A DNA stretch of 64,000 nt. It comes from Helicobacter monodelphidis. GTDB taxonomy: Bacteria > Campylobacterota > Campylobacteria > Campylobacterales > Helicobacteraceae. The notes under the pieces were generated by a model, which had not been told where the DNA came from, did no database searches, and saw only the letters and a list, made by a program, of their open reading frames with translations. The stretch spans positions 1 to 64,000 of the forward strand of contig NZ_NHYN01000009.1 of assembly GCF_003288845.1 (NCBI RefSeq). The letters are read 5' to 3'. Of this stretch, positions 3,208 through 64,000 are shown piece by piece; position 1 is the stretch's first letter; each line of letters starts with the position of its first letter. Position numbers and translations under genes: made by a program.

Positions 3208-3313
3208 GGATTTTGTTGGAGGATTATTATATCATTACTTCCATCGAGTGCGGTTTTATTGTCAGTTTTTTTATAAAACTAAAATCAGCAAATCGAAAAA
3301 AGAGGGGGTCAGA

Positions 3314-3853
3314 TTGAAACAAAGTAAAATTCTTGTTTATCTTTCCTTATTGAGTTTTATTGTTGCCATTGGAATGTTTGCTTATTTAGTGAATGCCTCA
3401 AAAGCACTTTCTTATCTTTCAGACAATCCGAAAGCCTGCATTAATTGCCATGTAATGTTCACGCAATATCAGACATGGCAGCACAGCTCACATCAAGGAG
3501 TTGCAACTTGTGTTGAATGCCATCTTCCAACAGATGGTTTTTTTGCAAAATATCTTGCAAAAGCCAAAGATGGATTCAATCATTCTGTTGCTTTTACAAT
3601 GGGAAGTTATCAACAAAGTATCGCCATCAGTCAAGATGGTGCAAATAGGGTACAAGCAAACTGCATTTCTTGTCATAGCAACCTTGCAGCTACACTTGTA
3701 GATAACGCACAAAATTATCATAATTTCAAGAATCCCACAGAATACAACGACAGGTGGTGTTGGGATTGCCATAAGGAAGTTCCTCATGGTCGTGTGCGTT
3801 CTTTATCAGCAACACCTAATGCAATTGGCATTAGAGAGTGGCATCAAAAATAA
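3314..3853 (+). CDS. nrfH: NrfH, membrane quinol dehydrogenase subunit of cytochrome c nitrite reductase
   Basis: NrfH is a NapC/NirT-family tetraheme cytochrome that takes electrons from menaquinol and passes them to NrfA on the periplasmic face. From the chosen start there are 179 residues: an N-terminal membrane anchor at about 6-26 and four c-type heme motifs, CINCH (42-46), CVECH (66-70), CISCH (117-121) and CWDCH (149-153). The segment after the anchor (YLVNASKALSYLS) matches Wolinella NrfH as I recall it. A longer frame opens at 3248, but the TTG at 3314 sits behind a strong RBS (GAGGGGG) and gives the family's N-terminus, so I prefer it. nrfA follows after 18 nt. Confidence 0.9.
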   Translation: MKQSKILVYLSLLSFIVAIGMFAYLVNASKALSYLSDNPKACINCHVMFTQYQTWQHSSHQGVATCVECHLPTDGFFAKYLAKAKDGFNHSVAFTMGSYQQSIAISQDGANRVQANCISCHSNLAATLVDNAQNYHNFKNPTEYNDRWCWDCHKEVPHGRVRSLSATPNAIGIREWHQK

Positions 3854-3871
3854 ATTAGGGGAGGAAAGTCA

Positions 3872-5389
3872 ATGAAATACAAAACTTTATTAATTGGGTC
3901 TTTATCAGCTATTGTTGTGATGGGGTTACTTGTTGGCAACATCAATGCACGGGAAAATGAACGGGAATCGTTACTTAAAAAACCAACAGAAGAAACAGGA
4001 ATTCCTAATAAGGAAAAGAGCGATGAATGGGCGAAATATTACCCGCGTGAATTTGATTCTTGGAGACGAACAAAAGAAAGCGAAACAATTGAAGATATGC
4101 TAGAAAAAAATCCAGCACTTGTTGTCGCTTGGGCAGGTTATGCATTCTCAAGAGATTATAATGCACCACGAGGACATTATTATGCGGTGCAGGATAATAT
4201 TAATACTCTAAGGACAGGGGCACCTACTGATGATAAAACAGGACCTCAACCAACCGCTTGTTGGACTTGTAAATCTACAGATGTACCGCGTCTTATGGAA
4301 GAGGAAGGAGAATTAGAATTCTTTACGGGTAAATGGGCAAGGCTAGGAAGTGAAGTTGTGAATCCTGTAGGTTGTTCTAATTGCCATGATGACAAAACTG
4401 CTGAATTAAAAATTAGCGTTCCTTATTTTGATAGAGGATTACAAGCAGCAGGTATGCCTACTTTTGCAGAATCAACACATCAGCAAAAACGTAGCCTGGT
4501 TTGTGCACAATGCCATGTGGAATATTATTTTAAGAAAACTGAGTACATAGACAAGAACAACCAACCTCAAACTGCGATGGTTGTCACATTACCTTGGGCA
4601 AAAGGCACAACGGTGGAAGAAATTGAAAAATATTATGATGAGATAAACTTTGTAGACTTTACACATAGCATTTCTAAAACCCCAATGCTTAAGGCCCAAC
4701 ACCCTGATTTTGAATTATTCCAAATTGGCATTCATGGTAAAAAGGGCGTTTCATGTGCAGATTGTCATATGCCTTACACACAAGAAGGGAGCGTAAAATA
4801 TTCAGACCACCGCATCGCAAGCCCGTTAGAGAATATCGATAAAACTTGTCTAAATTGTCATCGTGATAGCGAGAAGAATTTAATGACAATCGTTGGTGAA
4901 AAACGCGAACGTAAAGATATACTCCAAACAATCGCTTTTGACAATATTGCTAAAGCCCATCTTGAAACAGGGAAAGCACTTGAAGCAGGTGCGAGTTTAG
5001 ATGAATTAAAAGAAGTGCATACATTAATCCGCCACGCACAATGGAGAGGGGATATGGCAATTGCAGGACATGGATCGTTCTTCCACGCACCAGAAGAAGT
5101 CTTGAAACTTTTGGCTTCTGCAAACGAAGAGGCACAAAAAGCAAGAATCAAGCTTGTTGGGATTCTTGCAAAGCATGGCATAACGAATTATATTGCACCT
5201 GATTTTTCAACAAAGCAAGCGGCTCAAAATGCCATTGGCTTGAATTTGCAACCTTTTATTGATGAAAAGCTAAAATTCAAGGAAACTCTTGAAAAAGAAT
5301 GGAAAAAACAAGCTATTGAAAAAGGGAGAATTAATGCGAAAGCAGCGGAGGACATTCCTGATAATGCGACTTCCTATTTCAAAAAATAA
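3872..5389 (+). CDS. nrfA: NrfA, ammonia-forming pentaheme cytochrome c nitrite reductase
   Basis: NrfA reduces nitrite to ammonium with six electrons in the periplasm. The 505-residue protein has a signal peptide ending near NINA (about residues 1-26), the diagnostic catalytic heme motif CWTCK (130-134) in which Lys replaces His as proximal ligand, and four normal motifs CSNCH (168-172), CAQCH, CADCH and CLNCH. Length is as expected for the family. A strong RBS (GGGGAGG) precedes the ATG. It forms the nrfHAI operon with its electron donor and its cytochrome c synthase. Confidence 0.95.
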   Translation: MKYKTLLIGSLSAIVVMGLLVGNINARENERESLLKKPTEETGIPNKEKSDEWAKYYPREFDSWRRTKESETIEDMLEKNPALVVAWAGYAFSRDYNAPRGHYYAVQDNINTLRTGAPTDDKTGPQPTACWTCKSTDVPRLMEEEGELEFFTGKWARLGSEVVNPVGCSNCHDDKTAELKISVPYFDRGLQAAGMPTFAESTHQQKRSLVCAQCHVEYYFKKTEYIDKNNQPQTAMVVTLPWAKGTTVEEIEKYYDEINFVDFTHSISKTPMLKAQHPDFELFQIGIHGKKGVSCADCHMPYTQEGSVKYSDHRIASPLENIDKTCLNCHRDSEKNLMTIVGEKRERKDILQTIAFDNIAKAHLETGKALEAGASLDELKEVHTLIRHAQWRGDMAIAGHGSFFHAPEEVLKLLASANEEAQKARIKLVGILAKHGITNYIAPDFSTKQAAQNAIGLNLQPFIDEKLKFKETLEKEWKKQAIEKGRINAKAAEDIPDNATSYFKK

Positions 5390-52594: not shown

Positions 52595-53143
52595 ATGAAA
52601 AAGTATCTCATCACGGATCCCACTCTCTATCCTCCTTCACATTTCTTTTCTCTACTAGAATCTGCATTTCAAAGGCATTCTCCTAATATTGCCTTATTAA
52701 GAGGTTATGATGCTCAAGAATTTGCATCTAGTTTTATCTCTTTATGTCATCGCTATAATGTTTTAGCTTTCATAAGTGGAAATTTAAAAATCGCCATACA
52801 AAAGGGGTTTGATGGTGTTCACTTTAAAAGTACACAAATTCAGCAACTTAAAGAAAAACCAGATAATATCCTTTCGTTTTATAGTGCCCATTCTTTACAA
52901 GATATATTGTCTGCACAACAATATTGTGCAGACGCCGTTACACTTAGCCCCATCTTTAAAACCCCAAACAAAGGAGAGCCATTGGGCATACAATATCTTG
53001 TAAGGATATTACATGACTCACGCATCAACATTGATATTTTTGCTTTAGGCGGAATCTTAAGCCACCATATTCATCAATTGCAGAATCTACCTCTTGCTGG
53101 GTTTGCTGCCATTCGTTATTTTGCTGATTTAAATAATACTTAA
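52595..53143 (+). CDS. ThiE/TenI-like thiamine phosphate synthase family protein
   Basis: The 182-residue product is a small TIM-barrel protein of the ThiE/TenI family: MKKYLITDP start, FDGVHFKS, VTLSPIFKTPNKGEPLG (phosphate-binding loop) and FALGGI. True ThiE joins HMP-PP and HET-P; TenI-type proteins isomerise the thiazole. It is shorter than typical ThiE (about 210), so either is possible. It is encoded 45 nt after atpB. Confidence 0.7.
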   Translation: MKKYLITDPTLYPPSHFFSLLESAFQRHSPNIALLRGYDAQEFASSFISLCHRYNVLAFISGNLKIAIQKGFDGVHFKSTQIQQLKEKPDNILSFYSAHSLQDILSAQQYCADAVTLSPIFKTPNKGEPLGIQYLVRILHDSRINIDIFALGGILSHHIHQLQNLPLAGFAAIRYFADLNNT

Positions 53144-53215: not shown

Positions 53216-53587
53216 CTAGATTCTGAAAGTTACTTGTTTATCTTTTGTGCCAAAAGTGTCTCCTTGCCTCAAAAAAGATTTTAAATATCGTTTATCAATT
53301 TGATTAAAACCTTGTGGATTTGATACAAGCTTCACTTGAATATTTTGGACATCTTGAAGCTTCTTAAGTTTTACAGCTACATTCACTACAACTTGTATAT
53401 CTGCTTTGAAACTTCCTTTTATTTTTTCTGCTTTTACACTCTCAATTTCTTTTAAATTATAGCCCATAGATTCTAGCCATTCTTTTGCTAAATTATTATT
53501 TTCCCAATCATTAAAAGTATTGATTACAAAATTTTCATTTCTAAAACCATCTTTAGCGGTTTTTGAACCAAGTTCTACCTTATCCAT
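53216..53587 (-). pseudogene. Truncated type II restriction endonuclease
   Basis: The 123-residue product starts like a type II restriction enzyme family (DGFRNENFVINTFNDW, LESMGYNLKEIESVKAEKIKGSFKADIQV, IQVKLVSNPQGFNQIDKRYLKS), where the D, Q and K in the KADIQV and IQVKLVS strands look like a nuclease core. Family members are, from memory, some 300-plus residues long, so the C-terminal two thirds are missing; the frame ends soon after KRYLKS in unrelated sequence. The ATG overlaps the methyltransferase stop by 8 bp, as in paired restriction-modification genes. Confidence 0.65.
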
Positions 53588-54578
53588 TAGGCACATCTTT
53601 TTTAGTTATCATTTTTAAAATATTACTCGCAATATCTTCTATCACATTTACACTCATAGCATTTCCGGCTTGTCTTAAAATATCACTTGTTTTAAGATTT
53701 TTAATTTTATTTTGTAAATTTGGTAATTTATTAAATCCCTGCAATGCTAAAGCCTCTAAAGCACTTAACTTATAAAGAACCCCATTAAACACATAAAGCA
53801 AACCTTGCCTATCTCTTCTTAGCGTTGGAATTTTATTTTTATAGATTCTTAAATCACTTTGCCTCGTATCAATGATTAAAAAATCATATTTTAAGAGTTC
53901 ATCTAAATTAATTCGATTAATATTATATTTATTATTAATATATTTTAAAAAAGTCTTATAAGATTCTACATTATTATCAAATATATTTTCATTGCTTGGA
54001 TTTAAAAAATCTTTTATTTGTATCTTAGAATCTTGAAAAATTTTTGTTTCGAAAGAGAATTTAATTCCCAAATCTTTTCTTATTCCAACAAAATATACTC
54101 TTTCTCTACTCTGTGGTAAATCAAAATCTAAAGTATTTAAGAGTTGATGGGAGACATTATAACCGCAAGATTCTAATAATTCTAATATTATTTTAAGCGT
54201 TTCGCCCTTGTTATGACTCATTAAACCTTTAACATTTTCAAGGATAAAATAACTTGGTTGCTTGATTGCTAGGATCTTGCTTAAATAAAAAATTATTTGT
54301 CCTTTATCCAAATTCTCTAGCCCCTCTCTTTTACCCACAATACTAAAAGTTTGACAAGGGAATCCAGAAATAAGCAAATCAAAATCAGGTAAATTATATG
54401 GATTAATATTTGTCAAGTCCCCTAATTCTAGCTCATTGGTTGTGTCAAAAAAGCTTTTATAAGTCTTAATTGCTTCTTTGTCAATCTCGCTAAACCCAAG
54501 ACATTGAAAGCCATTGAGTTCTAATCCTAGTCGCCCACCACCAATGCCACTACAAAAATCTATAAAAGTCAAACCCAT
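53580..54578 (-). CDS. DNA cytosine-C5 methyltransferase
   Basis: The 332-residue enzyme shows the C5-methyltransferase motifs in order: I (FCSGIGGGRLGLE), IV with catalytic Cys (SGFPCQTFS), VI (ENVKG), VIII (QSRERVYFVG) and X (RQAGNAMSVNV). It modifies cytosine in a specific site, not deducible here. A strong RBS (AAGGAGGAGG) precedes the ATG. Its partner nuclease is truncated, so it may now be an orphan methylase. Lysine- and isoleucine-rich, AT-heavy codon use suggests acquired DNA. Confidence 0.92.
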   Translation of the reverse strand: MGLTFIDFCSGIGGGRLGLELNGFQCLGFSEIDKEAIKTYKSFFDTTNELELGDLTNINPYNLPDFDLLISGFPCQTFSIVGKREGLENLDKGQIIFYLSKILAIKQPSYFILENVKGLMSHNKGETLKIILELLESCGYNVSHQLLNTLDFDLPQSRERVYFVGIRKDLGIKFSFETKIFQDSKIQIKDFLNPSNENIFDNNVESYKTFLKYINNKYNINRINLDELLKYDFLIIDTRQSDLRIYKNKIPTLRRDRQGLLYVFNGVLYKLSALEALALQGFNKLPNLQNKIKNLKTSDILRQAGNAMSVNVIEDIASNILKMITKKDVPNG

Positions 54579-55815: not shown

Positions 55816-56466
55816 CTATACTCTCATTTCTAAAGCATGTTGCCAAAACTCAGCTTCAAGTCTTACAACATTATGAAAGATATGACTTAACTTATTAAAT
55901 TTTTCATCACTAACATTATAGGTATTCAAAAATTCCTCAAACTCCTGCGTTTCCTTCTGAAATTCCTCGCCTGCATAAGTTAAAATCCATTCCCTGTATG
56001 GATGATTTTCAAGAGAATGTTGAGAATTTTTAAAAACCTCTTTCCCAATATACGCATAACCTATTGCACAAGCACTTAGTGCAACAAGCATATCAAGAAA
56101 ATCCCCGCTCTCCCCTACGCTAAGCATATAACGCGTATAAGCAATATTCGTGATACTTTCATCTTTTGCACACAAATTATCTACATCAATCCCAAGTTGC
56201 AAAATACTTTTATGTAGTTCGATTTCACCTTCAATAATGTATTGCTGAAACTTCATTGCAAAACGTAACTCCTTAGCATTATCTGCATTCAAGGCAAGTC
56301 TCGCATAACATTTTGCATAGTTAATAAGGTACATGTAATCCTGCTTAAGATAAAACAAGAATTTTTCCTTTTCTAAACTTCCATCTTCTAACCTTTTCAC
56401 AAAACAATGATGAAGGTAACTATCCCATATCGCTGCATTTTCTTTGATTAATCGCTGAAATAACAT
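55816..56466 (-). CDS. tenA: TenA, aminopyrimidine aminohydrolase (thiaminase II)
   Basis: TenA hydrolyses degraded thiamine products to the HMP pyrimidine for reuse. The 216-residue all-helical protein has the family segments FLFYLKQDYMYLINYAKCYARL, the CAIGYAYIGK motif with the catalytic Cys, and NHPYREWILTYAGEEF. RBS AAAGGAG precedes the ATG. I see no TPP riboswitch upstream. Confidence 0.92.
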   Translation of the reverse strand: MLFQRLIKENAAIWDSYLHHCFVKRLEDGSLEKEKFLFYLKQDYMYLINYAKCYARLALNADNAKELRFAMKFQQYIIEGEIELHKSILQLGIDVDNLCAKDESITNIAYTRYMLSVGESGDFLDMLVALSACAIGYAYIGKEVFKNSQHSLENHPYREWILTYAGEEFQKETQEFEEFLNTYNVSDEKFNKLSHIFHNVVRLEAEFWQHALEMRV

Positions 56467-56776: not shown

Positions 56777-57221
56777 TATAATAAATAATTTATAATTAAT
56801 TAACTTTATTATATTTTATTAAACTAGGATATATTTCGTTACTTACAGACATAGAATTGTGCAAAAAATAAAAAAGAATGCAAGATTTCTATTTAAGTCA
56901 AGACAGATGAAAGATTTAATATAATTTAAAAAATAAATACCACCATAATCCACATTCACAAACGCAATTTTCGCCCAACATTTATGAATTATACCAAGAG
57001 AGGCAATTACTAAAAAGTGAATCAATGGCATTCTAAACACATCTTTATTAACTTGGAAACAGGTATTTATCCTTCCAAAAACTCCCTGCTAACAATGATT
57101 TTTATGTGAATACAATTATATAGATAATCCGCTTATACAATATTTGTTGACTTATCTTAAGATATTAATAAGAGTTATTATAATATACTTTCTCGTTTTT
57201 ATTACAACAATAAGGATTTTT
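56777..57221. other. Gene-free interval upstream of the porin operon
   Basis: This AT-rich interval carries the porin promoter region at its right end. A minus-strand frame at 56843-57040 (MPLIHFLVIASLGIIHKCW...) is hydrophobic but has no convincing RBS or family and may be a remnant. Confidence 0.45.
57153..57164. promoter_or_regulatory. Perfect 12-bp palindrome in the porin promoter
   Basis: TATCTTAAGATA is a perfect palindrome lying about 15 bp before a TATAAT -10 element at 57179-57184, so it overlaps the -35 position. This is a good place for a regulator of the whole downstream operon. Confidence 0.4.
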
Positions 57222-58535
57222 ATGATTAAAACCTCTTTAAAAACTTCCTATTTTTGCCTCTTTACACTTGGGTTATGTCTACCATCATCTATTCAAGCGA
57301 CACCTCTTGAGGAAATCATTTCTGGAATTAAAAGTGAAAGTTTCTTGCGATATCGTTACAACGATACTCGATGGAATAACCTTGATTTCATCAAAGGTAA
57401 TAACAAAACAGGTAGAACACAAATCAGCAGTGCAGGAAAAGGGGCTGCACATAATTTTAGGGCAGATTTTTCATTCACGACTCCAGATATACATGGTGTG
57501 AGCATGAATCTTGGTGCGGTCTATTTCAAGAATGCTTCAACAAACATTGGTGGAAACTATGGCGAAGGCTTAGGTGCTGGTGAAGATGGGGATTTTGGCG
57601 TGAGTACTTTTTATGCAAATATACAACCCTCAAACAACACACTCATTCAAATTGGAAAAATGCGCTTTGAAACACCCTTCAATGATCCATCAGATGACAG
57701 AGGAACAGGTGTTGTGCTTAAAAATAAGGACATTCAAGGCGTAAGCTTGTATGCAGCGGCCTATGACACTTGGTCGCTTGATGACAGTATGAATGCAATT
57801 CCATTTGGAACAAATGAAAATTCTCTTAACAAACCAATTTATCAATTTGCTATTGATGTTAGCCAAAATCAAATCGGTGCAAGTGCGTGGTATGTACACA
57901 TTCAAGATGTTTATGATTATCTTGCTTATGCGACATTGGGCTATAAAAATGACTTTTTGAATCTTAAGGCAGAATATGCACAAAGTCGACTGAATAATGG
58001 CTTATTTCAAACCATTTCTCCTCACACCCTTTTACAAAAAGATCACTCTTTAGCAACATTCAATATCGGCATAAACTACGCCTTTTTGAATGCTAGGCTG
58101 GGTTACATTGGCTCTTTTCAAGATGGTTATAAAGTCTCTATTGACAATCAAGGACAATTCATAAATGCAGGAAGAATCTGGAATGATAATAGCATAACAG
58201 ACATTAGTTATGCGGCAACAGGATCTATTGCAGATTCTAAACATCACCTTAATGTATTTTTTGCTTCTCTGGGCTTTTCTCCTTTGGAAAATAATACACT
58301 CGCATTCACGCTTGATTATGTTCAAGGTCAAGATAAAAATAAAACCCAAAATAGTACTTTAACATTCTATGAAATTACCCCAAATATTACCTATCGGTAT
58401 AATAAAAATCTTGATTTTCTGATTTACTATGCAATGCTTCATGCTTCAAAGGATCCAAAAAGGAATACGACGGGGGAAGAATATGCAGATGCACAAGAAA
58501 ATCGCTTACGATTCCAAACGATTTATCGTTTCTAA
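57222..58535 (+). CDS. Campylobacter-type major outer membrane porin (MOMP family)
   Basis: The 437-residue outer-membrane protein has a signal peptide (cleavage near SIQA, residue 26), the early SFLRYRYNDTRWNN strand, many alternating beta-strands such as GVSLYAAAYDTW and ASAWYVHIQDVYDYLAYATLGYK, and a terminal Phe for barrel assembly (RFQTIYRF). MOMP porins form trimeric general channels, but some are specialised for metal uptake. The frame opens at 57144; ATG 57222 with RBS TAAGGA gives the signal peptide. It is followed 19 nt later by an ABC importer operon, which suggests a dedicated uptake channel. Confidence 0.88.
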   Translation: MIKTSLKTSYFCLFTLGLCLPSSIQATPLEEIISGIKSESFLRYRYNDTRWNNLDFIKGNNKTGRTQISSAGKGAAHNFRADFSFTTPDIHGVSMNLGAVYFKNASTNIGGNYGEGLGAGEDGDFGVSTFYANIQPSNNTLIQIGKMRFETPFNDPSDDRGTGVVLKNKDIQGVSLYAAAYDTWSLDDSMNAIPFGTNENSLNKPIYQFAIDVSQNQIGASAWYVHIQDVYDYLAYATLGYKNDFLNLKAEYAQSRLNNGLFQTISPHTLLQKDHSLATFNIGINYAFLNARLGYIGSFQDGYKVSIDNQGQFINAGRIWNDNSITDISYAATGSIADSKHHLNVFFASLGFSPLENNTLAFTLDYVQGQDKNKTQNSTLTFYEITPNITYRYNKNLDFLIYYAMLHASKDPKRNTTGEEYADAQENRLRFQTIYRF

Positions 58536-58554
58536 CTTTATTGAAGGAGTTTTT

Positions 58555-59673
58555 ATGTTTTTCATTCTAAAAAAATCTCATACATTCTTGAGTTTATTAA
58601 TCTCTATGATTGCATTTTTAGGGATTATTCACGCAAAAGAGATCACTATTAAAGATGTGGCAGGGAGAGAGGTTAAGGTCAATTTACCTGCAAAACGTAT
58701 TGTTCTTGGCTTTTATTATACGGATTTTCTTGCTGTGGGCGGAACAAAAGCATTTGATAATGTTGTCGGCTTTTCAAAGGCAGTATGGACAGATTGGACG
58801 CCAACAAGCTGGGAAGTGTATAGTAAAGCAATTCCACGATTGCATCACATTGAAGACATTGGAGAAATTGAAGTTGGCACTTTTTCTGTCGAAAAAATCC
58901 TTAGTTTAAAGCCTGATCTCGTTATTTTAGCTGATTGGCAATGGCAGATGATGGAGCTAGAATTAGAACCTTTACAAAAAGCAAATATCCCCATCGTTGT
59001 TATTGATTATAATCGTGAAACTGTAGAGCGACATATCGCAAGTACACGCATTCTAGGGGAGATTACAGGACAAATTCAAAAGGCAAATGAATTAATTGCA
59101 TTCTATGAAAGTACAGTGAAAGAGGTGCAAACAAGAATTAAGAATGCAAATCGTCCAAAGCCAAAAATCTATATTGAATTTGGCAATAAAGGTCCAAACG
59201 AAAGTGGTTTTACTTATGGCAATGATATGTGGGGTGCTTTGATTGATTTAGCAGGGGGCGAAAATATTGCATCTCCTTTTGTAGAAAAATGGTCACCCAT
59301 TAATCCAGAACAAATCTTAATCTCCAAGCCAGAAGTTATCGTTATTACTGGGAGAGAAACGGAATTGAACAAAAATAAAGAATCTATGGTGATGGGTATT
59401 CTTATTGATGAAAAAGAAGCAAGAATGCGTCTGAACGCCTACAAAAATCGCCCCGGTTGGTCAAGTTTACCGGCCATTAAAAACAATCGTCTTTTTGGAC
59501 TTTATATGGGAGCATCAAGAACACTCGTTGATGCAACAATGGTACAATATCTTGCAAAGGCAATGTATCCGGATCTGTTTGCAGATATTGATCCAATCCA
59601 AAACTATATTGATTACCACAAAAAATATCTACCCATCGTTCCAACAGGAACATTTGGAATTCAGGCTGACTAA
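58555..59673 (+). CDS. Periplasmic binding protein of a FecB/BtuF-type importer
   Basis: The 372-residue protein has a signal peptide (to about IIHA, residue 25) and the TroA/FecB-like fold: EITIKDVAGREVKVNLPAKRIVLGF, then SVEKILSLKPDLVILADWQWQMMELELEPL and INPEQILISKPEVIVITG. The tryptophan- and methionine-rich stretch DWQWQMMELELEP is unusual and may be near the ligand. The ligand could be a ferric chelate, heme, nickel or another metal complex. ATG 58555 with RBS GAAGGAG is preferred over an upstream opening inside the porin gene. Confidence 0.85.
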   Translation: MFFILKKSHTFLSLLISMIAFLGIIHAKEITIKDVAGREVKVNLPAKRIVLGFYYTDFLAVGGTKAFDNVVGFSKAVWTDWTPTSWEVYSKAIPRLHHIEDIGEIEVGTFSVEKILSLKPDLVILADWQWQMMELELEPLQKANIPIVVIDYNRETVERHIASTRILGEITGQIQKANELIAFYESTVKEVQTRIKNANRPKPKIYIEFGNKGPNESGFTYGNDMWGALIDLAGGENIASPFVEKWSPINPEQILISKPEVIVITGRETELNKNKESMVMGILIDEKEARMRLNAYKNRPGWSSLPAIKNNRLFGLYMGASRTLVDATMVQYLAKAMYPDLFADIDPIQNYIDYHKKYLPIVPTGTFGIQAD

Positions 59674-60731
59674 TGCAAAATGAACAGATCATTCAAGAAG
59701 CTGTCCTAACGCATCGTAAACAGGAATGGCATCGGCTCTGCATTATTATGATCTTGATTGCAATTTGCTTGATTTCGCTTGTGCTTGATATTGCAACAGG
59801 CCCATCAATGATGAATCCCAAAGAAGTTATGAATGCACTTCTTGCAATATTTTTTGGAACAGAAGTGGAGCAATATCATCATATTATTATCTATGATATT
59901 CGCTTACCGCAAGCCTTGATGGCGATTGTTGTAGGAGCTGCTTTGGGAGCAGGTGGAGCAGAAATTCAAACTTTACTCAACAATCCTATGGCAAGTCCCT
60001 ATACGCTGGGATTAGCAGCCGCTTCAGGGCTTGGAGCATCTTTAGTCATTGCTTTTGGAACACTTGGGCTACCTTTAATGATTGCCGTCCCTATGGGTGC
60101 ATTCATAATGACAATGATTTCATCGGGTATCTTATTTAGTTTTGCCATGCTAAAGAATTTTAGCTCCTCTAGCCTTGTGCTTGTTGGAATTGCCTTACTC
60201 TTTTTGTTTCAATCTTTGCTCTCTTTGGTGCAATATCTTTCATCACCAGAGATTTCGCAACAGATTCTATTTTGGCTTTTTGGTTCCTTAGCGAAGGCAC
60301 AATGGGCAAATTTAGCCATTGTTTTTGTAACAACCACCATTTGTATGATCTTACTTTTCAAAGATTCTTGGGCATTAACGGCTTTACGATTAGGAGAAGA
60401 AAGAGCAAAAAGTATGGGCATCAATCTTTCTGCAGTGCGATTCAAAGCACTTGTTTTAGTTTCTATTATGACGGCAACAGCAATTAGTTTTGTTGGAGTA
60501 ATTGGCTTTATTGGCTTGGTTGCACCCCACATTGCTAGAATGATTGTAGGTGAAGATCAACGCTTTTTTCTACCTATGGCTAGCCTTACGGGTGCTGCAT
60601 TTTTATCAATAGCCTCTGTGCTTTCCAAAGTGATTGTGCCGGGTGCTTTATTTCCAGTTGGAATTGTAACTTCATTTATTGGAGTTCCATTCTTTTTTTG
60701 GATTATTCTTACAAGGAAAAATAGATGTTAG
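59673..60731 (+). CDS. FecCD/BtuC-type permease
   Basis: The 352-residue permease has about ten membrane helices and the FecCD motifs RLPQALMAIVVGAALGAGGAEIQTLLNNPMASPYTLG and GFIGLVAPHIARMIVGEDQRFFLP. The ATG overlaps the binding protein stop (TAATG). The N-terminus is about 25 residues longer and more charged than in the first importer of this window. Confidence 0.92.
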   Translation: MQNEQIIQEAVLTHRKQEWHRLCIIMILIAICLISLVLDIATGPSMMNPKEVMNALLAIFFGTEVEQYHHIIIYDIRLPQALMAIVVGAALGAGGAEIQTLLNNPMASPYTLGLAAASGLGASLVIAFGTLGLPLMIAVPMGAFIMTMISSGILFSFAMLKNFSSSSLVLVGIALLFLFQSLLSLVQYLSSPEISQQILFWLFGSLAKAQWANLAIVFVTTTICMILLFKDSWALTALRLGEERAKSMGINLSAVRFKALVLVSIMTATAISFVGVIGFIGLVAPHIARMIVGEDQRFFLPMASLTGAAFLSIASVLSKVIVPGALFPVGIVTSFIGVPFFFWIILTRKNRC

Positions 60732-61495
60732 ACATTCAAGATTTTACTTTACATCGTGGCAATTTATGTGTTGCTGATTCTTTAAATCTCTCTTTACAAC
60801 ATGGAAAAGTCTATGCTATATTAGGACCTAATGGTGCAGGAAAATCCTCTTTATTAGGTGCTATTTTTGGAGATCACAAATATAGTGGGCAAATTAGCCT
60901 AAAATCAAAAAACTTCCGTTCAATGCGCACTTCAGAATGGAAAAAACAGATTGGTTATATGCCACAAGATAATGTGGTTGATGCAAATTTAAGTGCAATT
61001 GAAGTTGTTCTCTTGGGACTAATCGATCATTTAGGTTACATTCTAAGTGACAAACAACTGCGTAAAGCAGCTGAAATTATGAATTCTTTAGGCATTCTCC
61101 ATCTTGCACAAAAAAATATTCTGAATCTTTCAGGTGGACAAAGACAAATGGTTATGTTTGCTTCTGTTCTTTTAAAATCCCCCCAAATTCTATTGCTTGA
61201 TGAACCAGTCAGTGCTCTTGATGTGCATCATCAATGTATTTTGTTAGAGGCTGTGCGAAAGCATACTTATGCGAAAGATCTCATTACACTTATGGTTTTG
61301 CATGATATTTCTCTTGCAGCACAATTTGCGGATGAGCTTATTATCTTGGCAGACACAAAGATTCAGGCTTTTGGCGAACCCAAAAAGGTTATCACAAAAG
61401 AATTAATTGAGCGCTTATATCGGGTTTGTGCTGATGTCTTTGAAGATCGCTCTGGATTGCCCATAGTTGCCATCAAATCAGCTTTAGTATCATAA
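60725..61495 (+). CDS. ATP-binding subunit of the second FecE-type importer
   Basis: The 256-residue ATPase shows Walker A GPNGAGKSS, the Q-loop MPQDN, signature LSGGQRQMVMFASVL, Walker B ILLLDEPVSALD and the switch His in VLHDIS. It overlaps the permease by 7 bp. Confidence 0.93.
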   Translation: MLDIQDFTLHRGNLCVADSLNLSLQHGKVYAILGPNGAGKSSLLGAIFGDHKYSGQISLKSKNFRSMRTSEWKKQIGYMPQDNVVDANLSAIEVVLLGLIDHLGYILSDKQLRKAAEIMNSLGILHLAQKNILNLSGGQRQMVMFASVLLKSPQILLLDEPVSALDVHHQCILLEAVRKHTYAKDLITLMVLHDISLAAQFADELIILADTKIQAFGEPKKVITKELIERLYRVCADVFEDRSGLPIVAIKSALVS

Positions 61496-61510
61496 TTGAA
61501 AGGAAAAAAA

Positions 61511-61954
61511 ATGCAAAAAATTCTTGGTTTATTCCTATTTGGAATAGTGTTACTCACAAACATAGAGGCAAAAGACTACGAAATCAAAATGCTCGATATG
61601 GACAAAAAAGGTCATACAATGGTGTTTGATCCGCCTTTTTTGCAGATTCAACCAGGCGACACAATCACTTTCATTCCCACCCACAAATCTCATTTTGCAC
61701 AAAGCAAAGTCATTCCAGATGGTGCAGAACATTTTTTGAGTCCCCTTGATCAAAAAACCACTTTTCAGCTGAATCAAGAAGGCGTGTATTTGTATGTCTG
61801 CCCACCCCATCAAATGATGAATATGGTGGGTATCATTCAGGTTGGTAAAGCAGTCAATATGCAAGAAATTCGCTCCGCCCTTCCTAAGCTAGAGCGAAAA
61901 GCAATGACAAATAAAGGGCGTTTTCTTGAGTATGCAAAGCAGATTCAAGAATGA
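61511..61954 (+). CDS. Pseudoazurin-like periplasmic cupredoxin
   Basis: The 147-residue protein has a signal peptide (cleavage near TNIEA, residue 20) and a single cupredoxin domain. The type 1 copper ligands are complete: His61 (THKSHFAQS), then Cys97, His100 and Met105 (VCPPHQMMNMVG). This is the pseudoazurin pattern, known elsewhere as a small electron carrier to nitrite or nitrous oxide reductase. Here it is encoded inside an ABC importer operon. A TTG at 61496 would extend it; ATG 61511 behind AAAGGA gives the signal peptide. A helical C-terminal tail of about 35 residues follows the barrel. Confidence 0.88.
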   Translation: MQKILGLFLFGIVLLTNIEAKDYEIKMLDMDKKGHTMVFDPPFLQIQPGDTITFIPTHKSHFAQSKVIPDGAEHFLSPLDQKTTFQLNQEGVYLYVCPPHQMMNMVGIIQVGKAVNMQEIRSALPKLERKAMTNKGRFLEYAKQIQE

Positions 61955-62808
61955 TGGAAACTATCACTATTTTAACTTGTAATGCCTACAAAGAGGGTAA
62001 TCAAGGCTTGAAACAATTCTGTGCTTATTTGCAAGCAAAAGGCTTGAATGCTAGGCTTCTTGCATGGCAGGAATGTCAATTTGAGTCTTTAAACTCATCG
62101 AGTATTCTTTTAGCTCTTGCAATGTGGGATTACAGTCTTGAGTTGGACTCCTTTTTGGAATTCTTAACGACTGTAAAAAAATCCCGAGCACAAATCCTAA
62201 ACCCCATTGTATTGCTTGAATGGAATCTTTCTAAGCAGTATCTCTTAGAATTACACTCTAAAAATATTCCGATTATTCCTTCTATATTGCTAATGCCCGG
62301 AGAAGAACAATGGGAAGATTCCATCTTAAGGCAACAACACATTTGGGGGGATTTAGTCATTAAGCCCCTCATTGGGCAAAGCGGTAAAAATGTGTGTCTT
62401 TTAACAAGTACAGATAACCCCACAAACCTAAAACGACAATATCCGCAAGGGGCAATCTTGCAACCCTTTATTCAAGAAATAAAACAAGGTGAAATGTGTC
62501 TAATTTTTTTTGAAAATCGCTTTCAGTATGCAATTTGCAGAAAACCTGCGGCAAAGGATTGGCGTGCAAATTCTGCCTATGGTGTTGATATTAGCCTCTG
62601 CCAGGCTCCAGAATCCGCTATCAAACAAGCTTTAAAAATCTTGGAAAATCTCCCTACCATTCCTCTTTATACGCGCGTTGATGTTATCGCATATCAGGAT
62701 AGATTCTTAGTAAACGAGGTTGAATTGATTGAACCATCATTATATTTCGATCTTCATTCATCGGCAATTGAACAATTCACACAAGTACTTTTAAAACGCT
62801 TACGCTAA
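61951..62808 (+). CDS. ATP-grasp ligase of unknown substrate (RimK/glutathione synthetase-like)
   Basis: The 285-residue protein has the ATP-grasp core: an N-terminal Rossmann-like domain, the nucleotide-binding DLVIKPLIGQSGKNV, the hinge ILQPFIQEI, the GEMCLIFFENRFQYAICRKPA strand, and the metal site RVDVIAYQDRFLVNEVELIEPSLYF. Such enzymes join a carboxylate to an amine or thiol with ATP; the substrates are not predictable. No signal peptide is seen, so it is cytoplasmic. The ATG overlaps the pseudoazurin stop (ATGA), which ties it to the importer operon. It is not Ddl, RimK or GshB proper. Confidence 0.8.
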   Translation: MMETITILTCNAYKEGNQGLKQFCAYLQAKGLNARLLAWQECQFESLNSSSILLALAMWDYSLELDSFLEFLTTVKKSRAQILNPIVLLEWNLSKQYLLELHSKNIPIIPSILLMPGEEQWEDSILRQQHIWGDLVIKPLIGQSGKNVCLLTSTDNPTNLKRQYPQGAILQPFIQEIKQGEMCLIFFENRFQYAICRKPAAKDWRANSAYGVDISLCQAPESAIKQALKILENLPTIPLYTRVDVIAYQDRFLVNEVELIEPSLYFDLHSSAIEQFTQVLLKRLR

Positions 62809-63164: not shown

Positions 63165-63475
63165 TTATTTATAGATAGCATTGAACAAAATCTCTAATTC
63201 TTTTTCACTAATTTGTTCTACACTATAACTGGGCATATTGCTTTCAATCGTCCAACGACCTGTCCCACGCACAAAACCTTTGAAAGAATCTAATGTGAGA
63301 TTGCTTTTAGGTAACTCTAAACCTTGATTCAAATGACAACTTCCACAATCACTCATTTTCATTGCATTTGCAATTCTTTCTTTTCTCTGCTCCTTCAATC
63401 CATCTTTCAAAGCAATTTCTAAGTTATTTAAGTTTTTGTTGATTAAGTCGACTTTCAATTCTGTCCTAACAAAAG
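63165..63475 (-). pseudogene. C-terminal fragment of a c-type cytochrome
   Basis: The minus-strand frame gives roughly 100 residues with one heme motif, SDCGSCH, and a later Met in ESNMPSYSVEQIS that could be the distal ligand, as in monoheme cytochrome c domains. The frame reads back as YETFVRTELKVDLINKNL to a TAA just beyond, inside tnpB sequence, so the natural N-terminus (and any signal peptide) is missing. A TTG at 63458 gives the listed short form. The junction with tnpB lies around 63465-63480. Confidence 0.6.
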
Positions 63476-64000
63476 TTTCATAAATTTACCCCAACTAGCA
63501 TTAGCAATAGATTTAGATAAGTGTTTGTTTCTTATCATTCCTTTTACATTGAGAGTTTCTACACCGATAAAATCATATTGATTAGTTATCTCGTTACTGA
63601 TTTTATGCAGATAGTCTTCTCTTGCTCTTGCTACTTGTAAATGGGCTTTGGCTACTTTTAGTTTAGCTTTTATTCTATTATTTGAACCCTTTTGTTTTTT
63701 GCTAAGTTGTCTTTGAAGTTTTATGAGTTTGCTTTCTTTATCTTGTAAGAATTTCTTATTAGGATAAATAATCCCATCACTTCTTATCAGTAAAGATTCT
63801 AAGCCCATATCTAAACCAACAGCATTTTCTACTATTTTTGGCTTAAGTAAAGATTTATTGTTTTCATAGCTAATTGCAATGTAGTATTCATCGGCTATTT
63901 TTGAAATAAAGGCTTGTTTTATTGTATGATCACTATCAAGTTTTCTATGGATTTTAGCTCTTATACCCTCTTTGAATTTAGGAATAATCACTTTCTTTTT
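63455..64000 (-). pseudogene. tnpB: Truncated TnpB (IS200/IS605 family), N-terminus beyond the window
   Basis: The minus-strand frame is open to the window edge and reads as the middle of TnpB, the RNA-guided nuclease of IS200/IS605 elements: IPKFKEGIRAKIHRKL, the RuvC-I motif GLDMGLESLLIRSDG with its Asp, a coiled stretch, and the RuvC-II segment VETLNVKGM with Glu. It stops at SWGKFMKLLLGQN, before the zinc ribbon and RuvC-III Asp, so it cannot be an active nuclease. The sequence then runs directly into the cytochrome fragment; no right end or omega RNA is visible there. Confidence 0.85.

Follow-up and report, generated by a model that had tools for sequence, protein, structure and literature searches.

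A six-gene operon of Helicobacter monodelphidis, lying in a 64,000-nucleotide stretch of contig NZ_NHYN01000009.1 (all of which is called the window below), raises the question of what a periplasmic copper protein and a cytoplasmic ATP-grasp ligase are doing behind an ATP-binding cassette (ABC) importer, and which metal, if any, the unit serves. The sequence-only reading of this DNA had taken the operon for a distinct metal-handling system, and its six plus-strand genes and the five gaps between them (19, -1, -7, 15 and -4 nt) were reproduced from the coordinates of the open reading frames (ORFs). We suggest that the last five genes form a mobile iron-acquisition module with a chelate-import mechanism, an explanation that we hold to be reasonably probable. 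The idea of a distinct metal-handling system is supported.

A five-gene cassette conserved across phyla

A neighbourhood search, set beforehand as the test of whether the last two genes are linked to the importer, strongly favours linkage. Genes for a binding protein, FecCD permease, ATPase, pseudoazurin-like protein and ATP-grasp ligase recur in this order in ~37 distinct genomes by our own count, from Campylobacterota, Gammaproteobacteria and Betaproteobacteria, with Helicobacter, Campylobacter, Haemophilus, Aggregatibacter, Actinobacillus, Neisseria, Pelistega and Vibrio among the hosts. This recurring order supports the earlier claim that the pseudoazurin and ATP-grasp genes belong with the importer. 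On a Vibrio coralliilyticus plasmid, the ATP-grasp gene found by tblastn lies directly 3' of the binding protein, permease, ATPase and pseudoazurin genes, in identical order. Scanning genomes with a small alignment gave 36 loci. Among the loci analysed, 25 (two being duplicate fetches) have all five genes close together, on a single strand in 23 of the 25 and mostly with gaps below 75 nt. Among the remaining loci, Neisseria has a ligase gene that is divergent yet adjacent; in Actinobacillus cassettes the ligase gene is preceded by an additional binding-protein gene. The cluster is kept in all of 15 further Pasteurellaceae regions, about half of which are repeat genomes.

The same association is seen from the side of presence and absence. 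The ATP-grasp gene occurs in 13 of 347 Campylobacterota genomes, and the importer stands beside it in all 13; the binding protein exceeds 600 bits in 12 of the 347, all of them among these 13, while the contig of the 13th ends inside the permease gene. The copper protein gene adjoins the ligase gene in 10 of the 13, the other three having a four-gene form without it. Fisher tests of these co-occurrences gave p values of 2e-21 and 3e-15, without correction for kinship. Of the last two genes, the ATP-grasp gene is the one with the closer tie to the importer. Pairwise protein distances among the five genes correlate with r of 0.93-0.97, as expected for a unit inherited and transferred together, with shared ancestry also contributing. 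Because the same order of the last five genes is kept across phyla, the operon linkage goes far beyond chance. We conclude that the cassette is a mobile unit, moved intact between distantly related bacteria. The proposal that importer, copper protein and ligase make up a single transcription unit is likewise supported. Terminator-like sites between the operon genes on the plus strand are in no excess over chance.

Partial arrangements were also observed. The neighbours of standalone ATP-grasp genes in Neisseria (L017), Cardiobacteriaceae (L030 and L038), Brachymonas (L027) and Ottowia (L033) give no functional pointer, and transporter-only relatives in Rhizobium and Rahnella give no clue to the substrate. 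In Cardiobacterium valvarum and one relative, the copper protein and the importer are encoded elsewhere in the genome, apart from the ATP-grasp gene. An Aureimonas plasmid (L045, 4908-8390) carries the importer and a pseudoazurin gene split into two ORFs, without the ATP-grasp gene, which suggests a decaying or alternative form of the cassette.

Iron as the most likely metal

The metal had been left as copper, iron or nickel; iron is the most likely, being favoured by Fur boxes and by an iron-starvation proteome. The Fur consensus TGATAATNATTATCA is matched at at least 11 of 14 positions upstream of the first cassette gene in 13 of 23 loci, compared with 13 of 200 other genes from the same loci. 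Tested against shuffled sequences, Fur sites reach p≤0.01 in 10 of 25 loci, while sites for Zur, CueR, NikR, MntR and FNR do so in none. The boxes are clear in Pelistega (a perfect match, TGATAATTATTATCA), Haemophilus (13 of 14 positions), Aggregatibacter and Nitrincola, and weaker ones stand upstream in Actinobacillus relatives. Within Pasteurellaceae, 14 of 15 loci have matches at 11-13 of the 14 positions; in the one exception the reading frame of the binding protein is broken, which probably led to a misplaced start.

Further support comes from Actinobacillus pleuropneumoniae, where the genes APPSER1_09785-09810 encode a binding protein, permease, ATPase, pseudoazurin, second binding protein and 'glutathione synthetase' and were named 'putative iron transport-associated' by the authors (PMC12507848). 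Deferoxamine raises these proteins by log2 values of 2.98, 2.93, 1.49, 2.38, 2.38 and 0.91 in gene order (PMC12507848). This operon is evidently the same cassette.

The binding protein, the copper protein and the ligase

Permease, ATPase and binding protein all score above their Pfam cut-offs and together make up a type II (BtuCD/FecCD) ABC importer, in which the permease, encoded by one gene, is presumably a homodimer. The nearest solved structures of the binding protein are Veillonella 4mo9 and YiuA, and the nearest ligand-bound ones are YiuA structures that contain iron or an iron chelate, among them that of Y. ruckeri YiuA loaded with iron. Its overall fold is of the YiuA type (template modelling (TM) score 0.85-0.89 by target length, profile E value 1e-54).

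In the copper protein, a cupredoxin related to 1bqk, the ligands His61, Cys97, His100 and Met105 are present as earlier described and invariant in 18 relatives. We call it pseudoazurin-like, since it misses the TIGR02375 equivalog cut-off (103 versus 109.85 bits). A role in denitrification was considered and rejected, as the window genome has no NirK above cut-off. In seven Haemophilus and Aggregatibacter loci, a CCP_MauG di-haem peroxidase gene lies directly upstream of the binding protein gene; di-haem cytochrome c peroxidase genes were located at 3287-4438 (L022), 3289-4446 (L035) and 3311-4447 (L039), and the Aggregatibacter peroxidase gene follows a GshF-type gene for glutathione synthesis. 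Related copper proteins (L105, L106 and L107, 41-45% identical) are unlinked to an importer: they were seen in two Helicobacteraceae and, as an additional copy, in one genome from a different family within the order.

The ligase has the fold and the ATP and metal residues of the ATP-grasp superfamily. Lys138 and Glu181, together with the metal residues Asp244, Glu256 and Glu258, are present and invariant in 28 relatives, which bears out the intact ATP and metal site of the sequence-only reading. Its structural model (predicted local distance difference test score 95.5) best matches the fold of DcsG (6jil, TM 0.84), followed by ArgX, glutathione synthetase, PsnB and RimK; the alignments for structure prediction were built without one plasmid-record row. 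The DcsG model NF058666 is matched by 28 of 28 relatives, with the window copy at 108 bits, short of the equivalog cut-off of 360. Against GshB (cut-off 272) and the RimK family (143.4) it scores 33 and 31.7 bits, and it is below all NCBIfam cut-offs, passing only the Pfam superfamily cut-off. An R-x-P...RANS motif is paired in it with an ExE-x-x-EPxL metal-site end as in DcsG; the RANS motif is a feature of RimK and glutathione synthetase.

A possible route across the outer membrane

A complete path from porin to ATPase had also been proposed, of which the importer part stands, while the porin proves to lie outside the conserved core and not to be a single orthologue where present. A MOMP-family porin gene adjoins four of about 14 Campylobacterota cassettes (the window, L011, L112 and L113), being divergent in two other Helicobacteraceae and on the same strand, ~500 nt off, in C. 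troglodytis. As these genomes have 1-5 MOMP genes each, chance would rarely place one next to the cassette in four of about 14 cases (roughly 1e-6). The porin was nevertheless rejected as a core member: it adjoins some Campylobacterota cassettes only, on either strand, and its adjacent copies do not group as a single orthologous clade, so that separate recruitment is probable. A TonB receptor was rejected as a hidden partner, with one found among 40 mostly large neighbouring proteins scanned; the window genome has two such receptors, both away from the operon. We infer that the substrate enters via a porin and is hence small.

Proposed mechanism and alternatives

We propose that a small iron chelate would cross the outer membrane by a general porin (MOMP in the window), not by a TonB receptor, and that the binding protein would hand it to the FecCD permease. 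During capture, the copper protein may accept an electron from Fe(II), whereby the ferric chelate would form, and this electron could then reach the respiratory chain or, where a di-haem peroxidase gene adjoins the cassette (Haemophilus and Aggregatibacter), that peroxidase. Fe(II) oxidation of this kind has a precedent in the cupredoxin FtrB (PMC11966278), and it is by analogy with FtrB that we suggest it here. The ligase would make a small amide- or hydroxamate-type ligand, or alter it after import; the substrate of the ligase is the weakest step of the mechanism. The whole would operate in the manner of EfeUOB or FtrABCD, which pair a copper protein with an iron permease, except that import would be by an ATP-driven chelate importer. 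In its most specific form, the proposal would be one of TonB-independent iron acquisition, in which a DcsG-like enzyme makes or tailors the ligand, a blue copper ferroxidase aids periplasmic capture, the FecCD system imports the complex, and the cassette moves between phyla. This version is tentative, and we rate it as possible rather than probable.

Several observations weigh against an iron-chelate importer of this kind. The possible Helicobacter-type Fur box of the window (TAATAAGAGTTATTA, 57166-57180, overlapping the -10 element) matches TAATAATNATTATTA at 12 of 14 positions, and because the region is AT-rich its p value against shuffles is only 0.06; the cassettes of C. troglodytis and some Neisseria have no convincing Fur box. 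The match to the A. pleuropneumoniae operon rests on gene order and annotation, mRNA of the same genes in the same dataset falls or stays flat (log2 -1.64 to -0.14; PMC12507848), and no mention of the pseudoazurin was found in the searched part of an earlier microarray study. Actinobacillus-type loci (L015, L141, L142, L145 and L148) have a perfect or near-perfect CRP site ~110-125 nt upstream, beside the weaker Fur box, and this site might account for the discrepancy between mRNA and protein. The basic triad proposed in the YiuA pocket (Arg64, Arg165 and Arg223; PMC5683015) aligns with a gap, Asn153 and Gly210 in the window binding protein, and Tyr334 of YiuA with Ser321; as neither triad nor tyrosine is kept, the ligand probably differs from that of YiuA. 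The three Campylobacterota cassettes without a copper protein imply that this protein is not essential to import. Lastly, the cassette has no exporter for a self-made chelator.

The main rival explanation for the copper protein is that of an iron-sparing electron carrier, which would replace cytochrome c under iron limitation and be merely co-transcribed with the importer, with no direct part in uptake. The mutual replacement of plastocyanin and cytochrome c6 is the model for such a swap, and both peroxidases and nitrite reductase receive electrons from pseudoazurins. The presence of Fur boxes in front of the operon would be in keeping with this explanation, as would the pseudoazurin copies that lie apart from the importer (G030, G344 and G281) and the four-gene cassettes. 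However, the sequence of the copper protein evolves with the importer (r 0.93-0.95), most loci have no more than 32 nt between its gene and that of the ATPase, the neighbouring gene in Haemophilus encodes a haem enzyme, which costs iron, and NirK was not among the proteins above cut-off in the window genome. We regard a purely iron-sparing role as unlikely.

Two other explanations concern the substrate itself. It could be an organic nutrient or a piece of a cofactor, which the ATP-grasp enzyme would trap in the cytoplasm by amide ligation, much as folates are trapped in cells by glutamylation. FecCD permeases also carry cobalamin, the best NCBIfam match of the window permease is BtuC (below cut-off), the importer has a closer link with the ligase than with the copper protein, and the metal-chelate site of YiuA is absent, all of which would suit such a substrate; Fur boxes and the reported induction by iron starvation would not, and the redox copper protein would be left without an obvious use, making this explanation rather improbable in our judgement. 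Import of a copper or nickel chelate, with pseudoazurin receiving or reducing copper in the periplasm and the ligase making or modifying a copper ligand, draws on the intact cupredoxin ligands in every aligned copy and on H. pylori CeuE, in which the same binding-protein fold is used for Ni-His. Yet CueR- or NikR-like boxes occur in none of the 25 operons, as opposed to Fur boxes in 10, the identified recurring neighbours include no copper resistance or copper enzyme gene, and the proteins rise with an iron chelator (PMC12507848); we consider a copper or nickel substrate quite improbable.

Layout of the locus and neighbouring genes

Table 1. Features of the operon and its upstream region in the window
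Feature	Position	Strand	Evidence
Candidate promoter TTAAGA-16-TATAAT, preceding the porin gene	57157..57184	+	Consensus scan
MOMP-family porin, lineage-specific first gene of the operon	57222..58535	+	Campylo_MOMP PF05538, 135 bits, 4e-39
Class III periplasmic binding protein of the importer	58555..59673	+	Peripla_BP_2 PF01497, 90 bits, 1e-25
FecCD/BtuC-type permease	59673..60731	+	FecCD PF01032, 271 bits, 1e-80
ABC ATPase	60725..61495	+	ABC_tran PF00005, 112 bits, 3e-32
Pseudoazurin-like periplasmic cupredoxin, signal peptide	61511..61954	+	Copper-bind, 47 bits; TIGR02375, 103 bits, 8e-30
DcsG/RimK/GshB-like ATP-grasp ligase, cytoplasmic	61951..62808	+	GSH-S_ATP, 35 bits (Pfam)

The porin ORF sits within a longer frame with a TTG start (Table 1). 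Upstream of the operon, on the opposite strand, lie genes for an EamA transporter and a TenA thiaminase II (55816-56466); with a thiamine phosphate synthase-like gene (52595-53143) within 3 kb, they form a possible thiamine salvage cluster. A C-5 cytosine methylase gene on the minus strand is followed by the first third only of a gene for an R.HinP1I-type restriction enzyme (53216-54578 for both), and this nuclease appears truncated. Downstream, a short minus-strand ORF (63165-63458) with a CxxCH haem motif and no Pfam match abuts a gene for an IS605 OrfB transposase where the contig ends (region 63165-64000), and so looks like a cytochrome c cut by insertion. The window contains no tRNA genes.

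Comparison with known systems

Taken singly, the parts of the cassette are of known kinds, as regards the type of importer, the type of copper protein and the superfamily of the ligase. The literature searched describes neither their combination nor its mobility, and pseudoazurin, ATP-grasp and ABC transporter were not found together there; nor was an assigned function found for the cassette. The hosts include bacteria of medical or veterinary interest (Haemophilus parainfluenzae, Aggregatibacter, Neisseria, Cardiobacterium, Actinobacillus, Helicobacter and Campylobacter), and the cassette is probably an uncharacterised iron-uptake system common to several animal and human commensals and pathogens. 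If iron is indeed what it handles, the cassette couples chelate import with a redox protein that uses copper and with a ligase for small molecules, and would suggest an uncharacterised low-molecular-weight iron ligand together with a TonB-independent entry route.

In its annotated order, the A. pleuropneumoniae operon is the same as its Actinobacillus relatives L015, L141 and L142, and unlike the window it has the second binding protein before the ligase. DcsG, the D-cycloserine synthetase, is nearest to the window ligase in sequence and fold and shares the ExE-x-x-EPxL end, whereas the R-x-P...RANS motif is absent from DcsG in the alignment, and other cycloserine genes were not noticed near the operon. 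With the pseudoazurins of denitrifiers, the copper protein shares fold, size and four copper ligands, but it is linked to an importer rather than to nirK or nosZ, and just misses TIGR02375. EfeUOB and FtrABCD resemble the cassette in tying a periplasmic cupredoxin to an iron importer, and the Haemophilus cassette also adjoins a haem peroxidase; in contrast to them, its operon has an ABC importer with a chelate-type binding protein and no Ftr1/EfeU permease or imelysin (M75) domain, its cupredoxin is of the pseudoazurin type, and an ATP-grasp ligase is added. YiuRABC of Yersinia and related class III iron-chelate importers share with it the fold and length of the binding protein, the FecCD permease, the ATPase and, in several lineages, Fur boxes. 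The cassette differs from YiuRABC in lacking the basic triad and Tyr334 of YiuA and an adjacent TonB receptor, and in adding a copper protein and a ligase to the importer.

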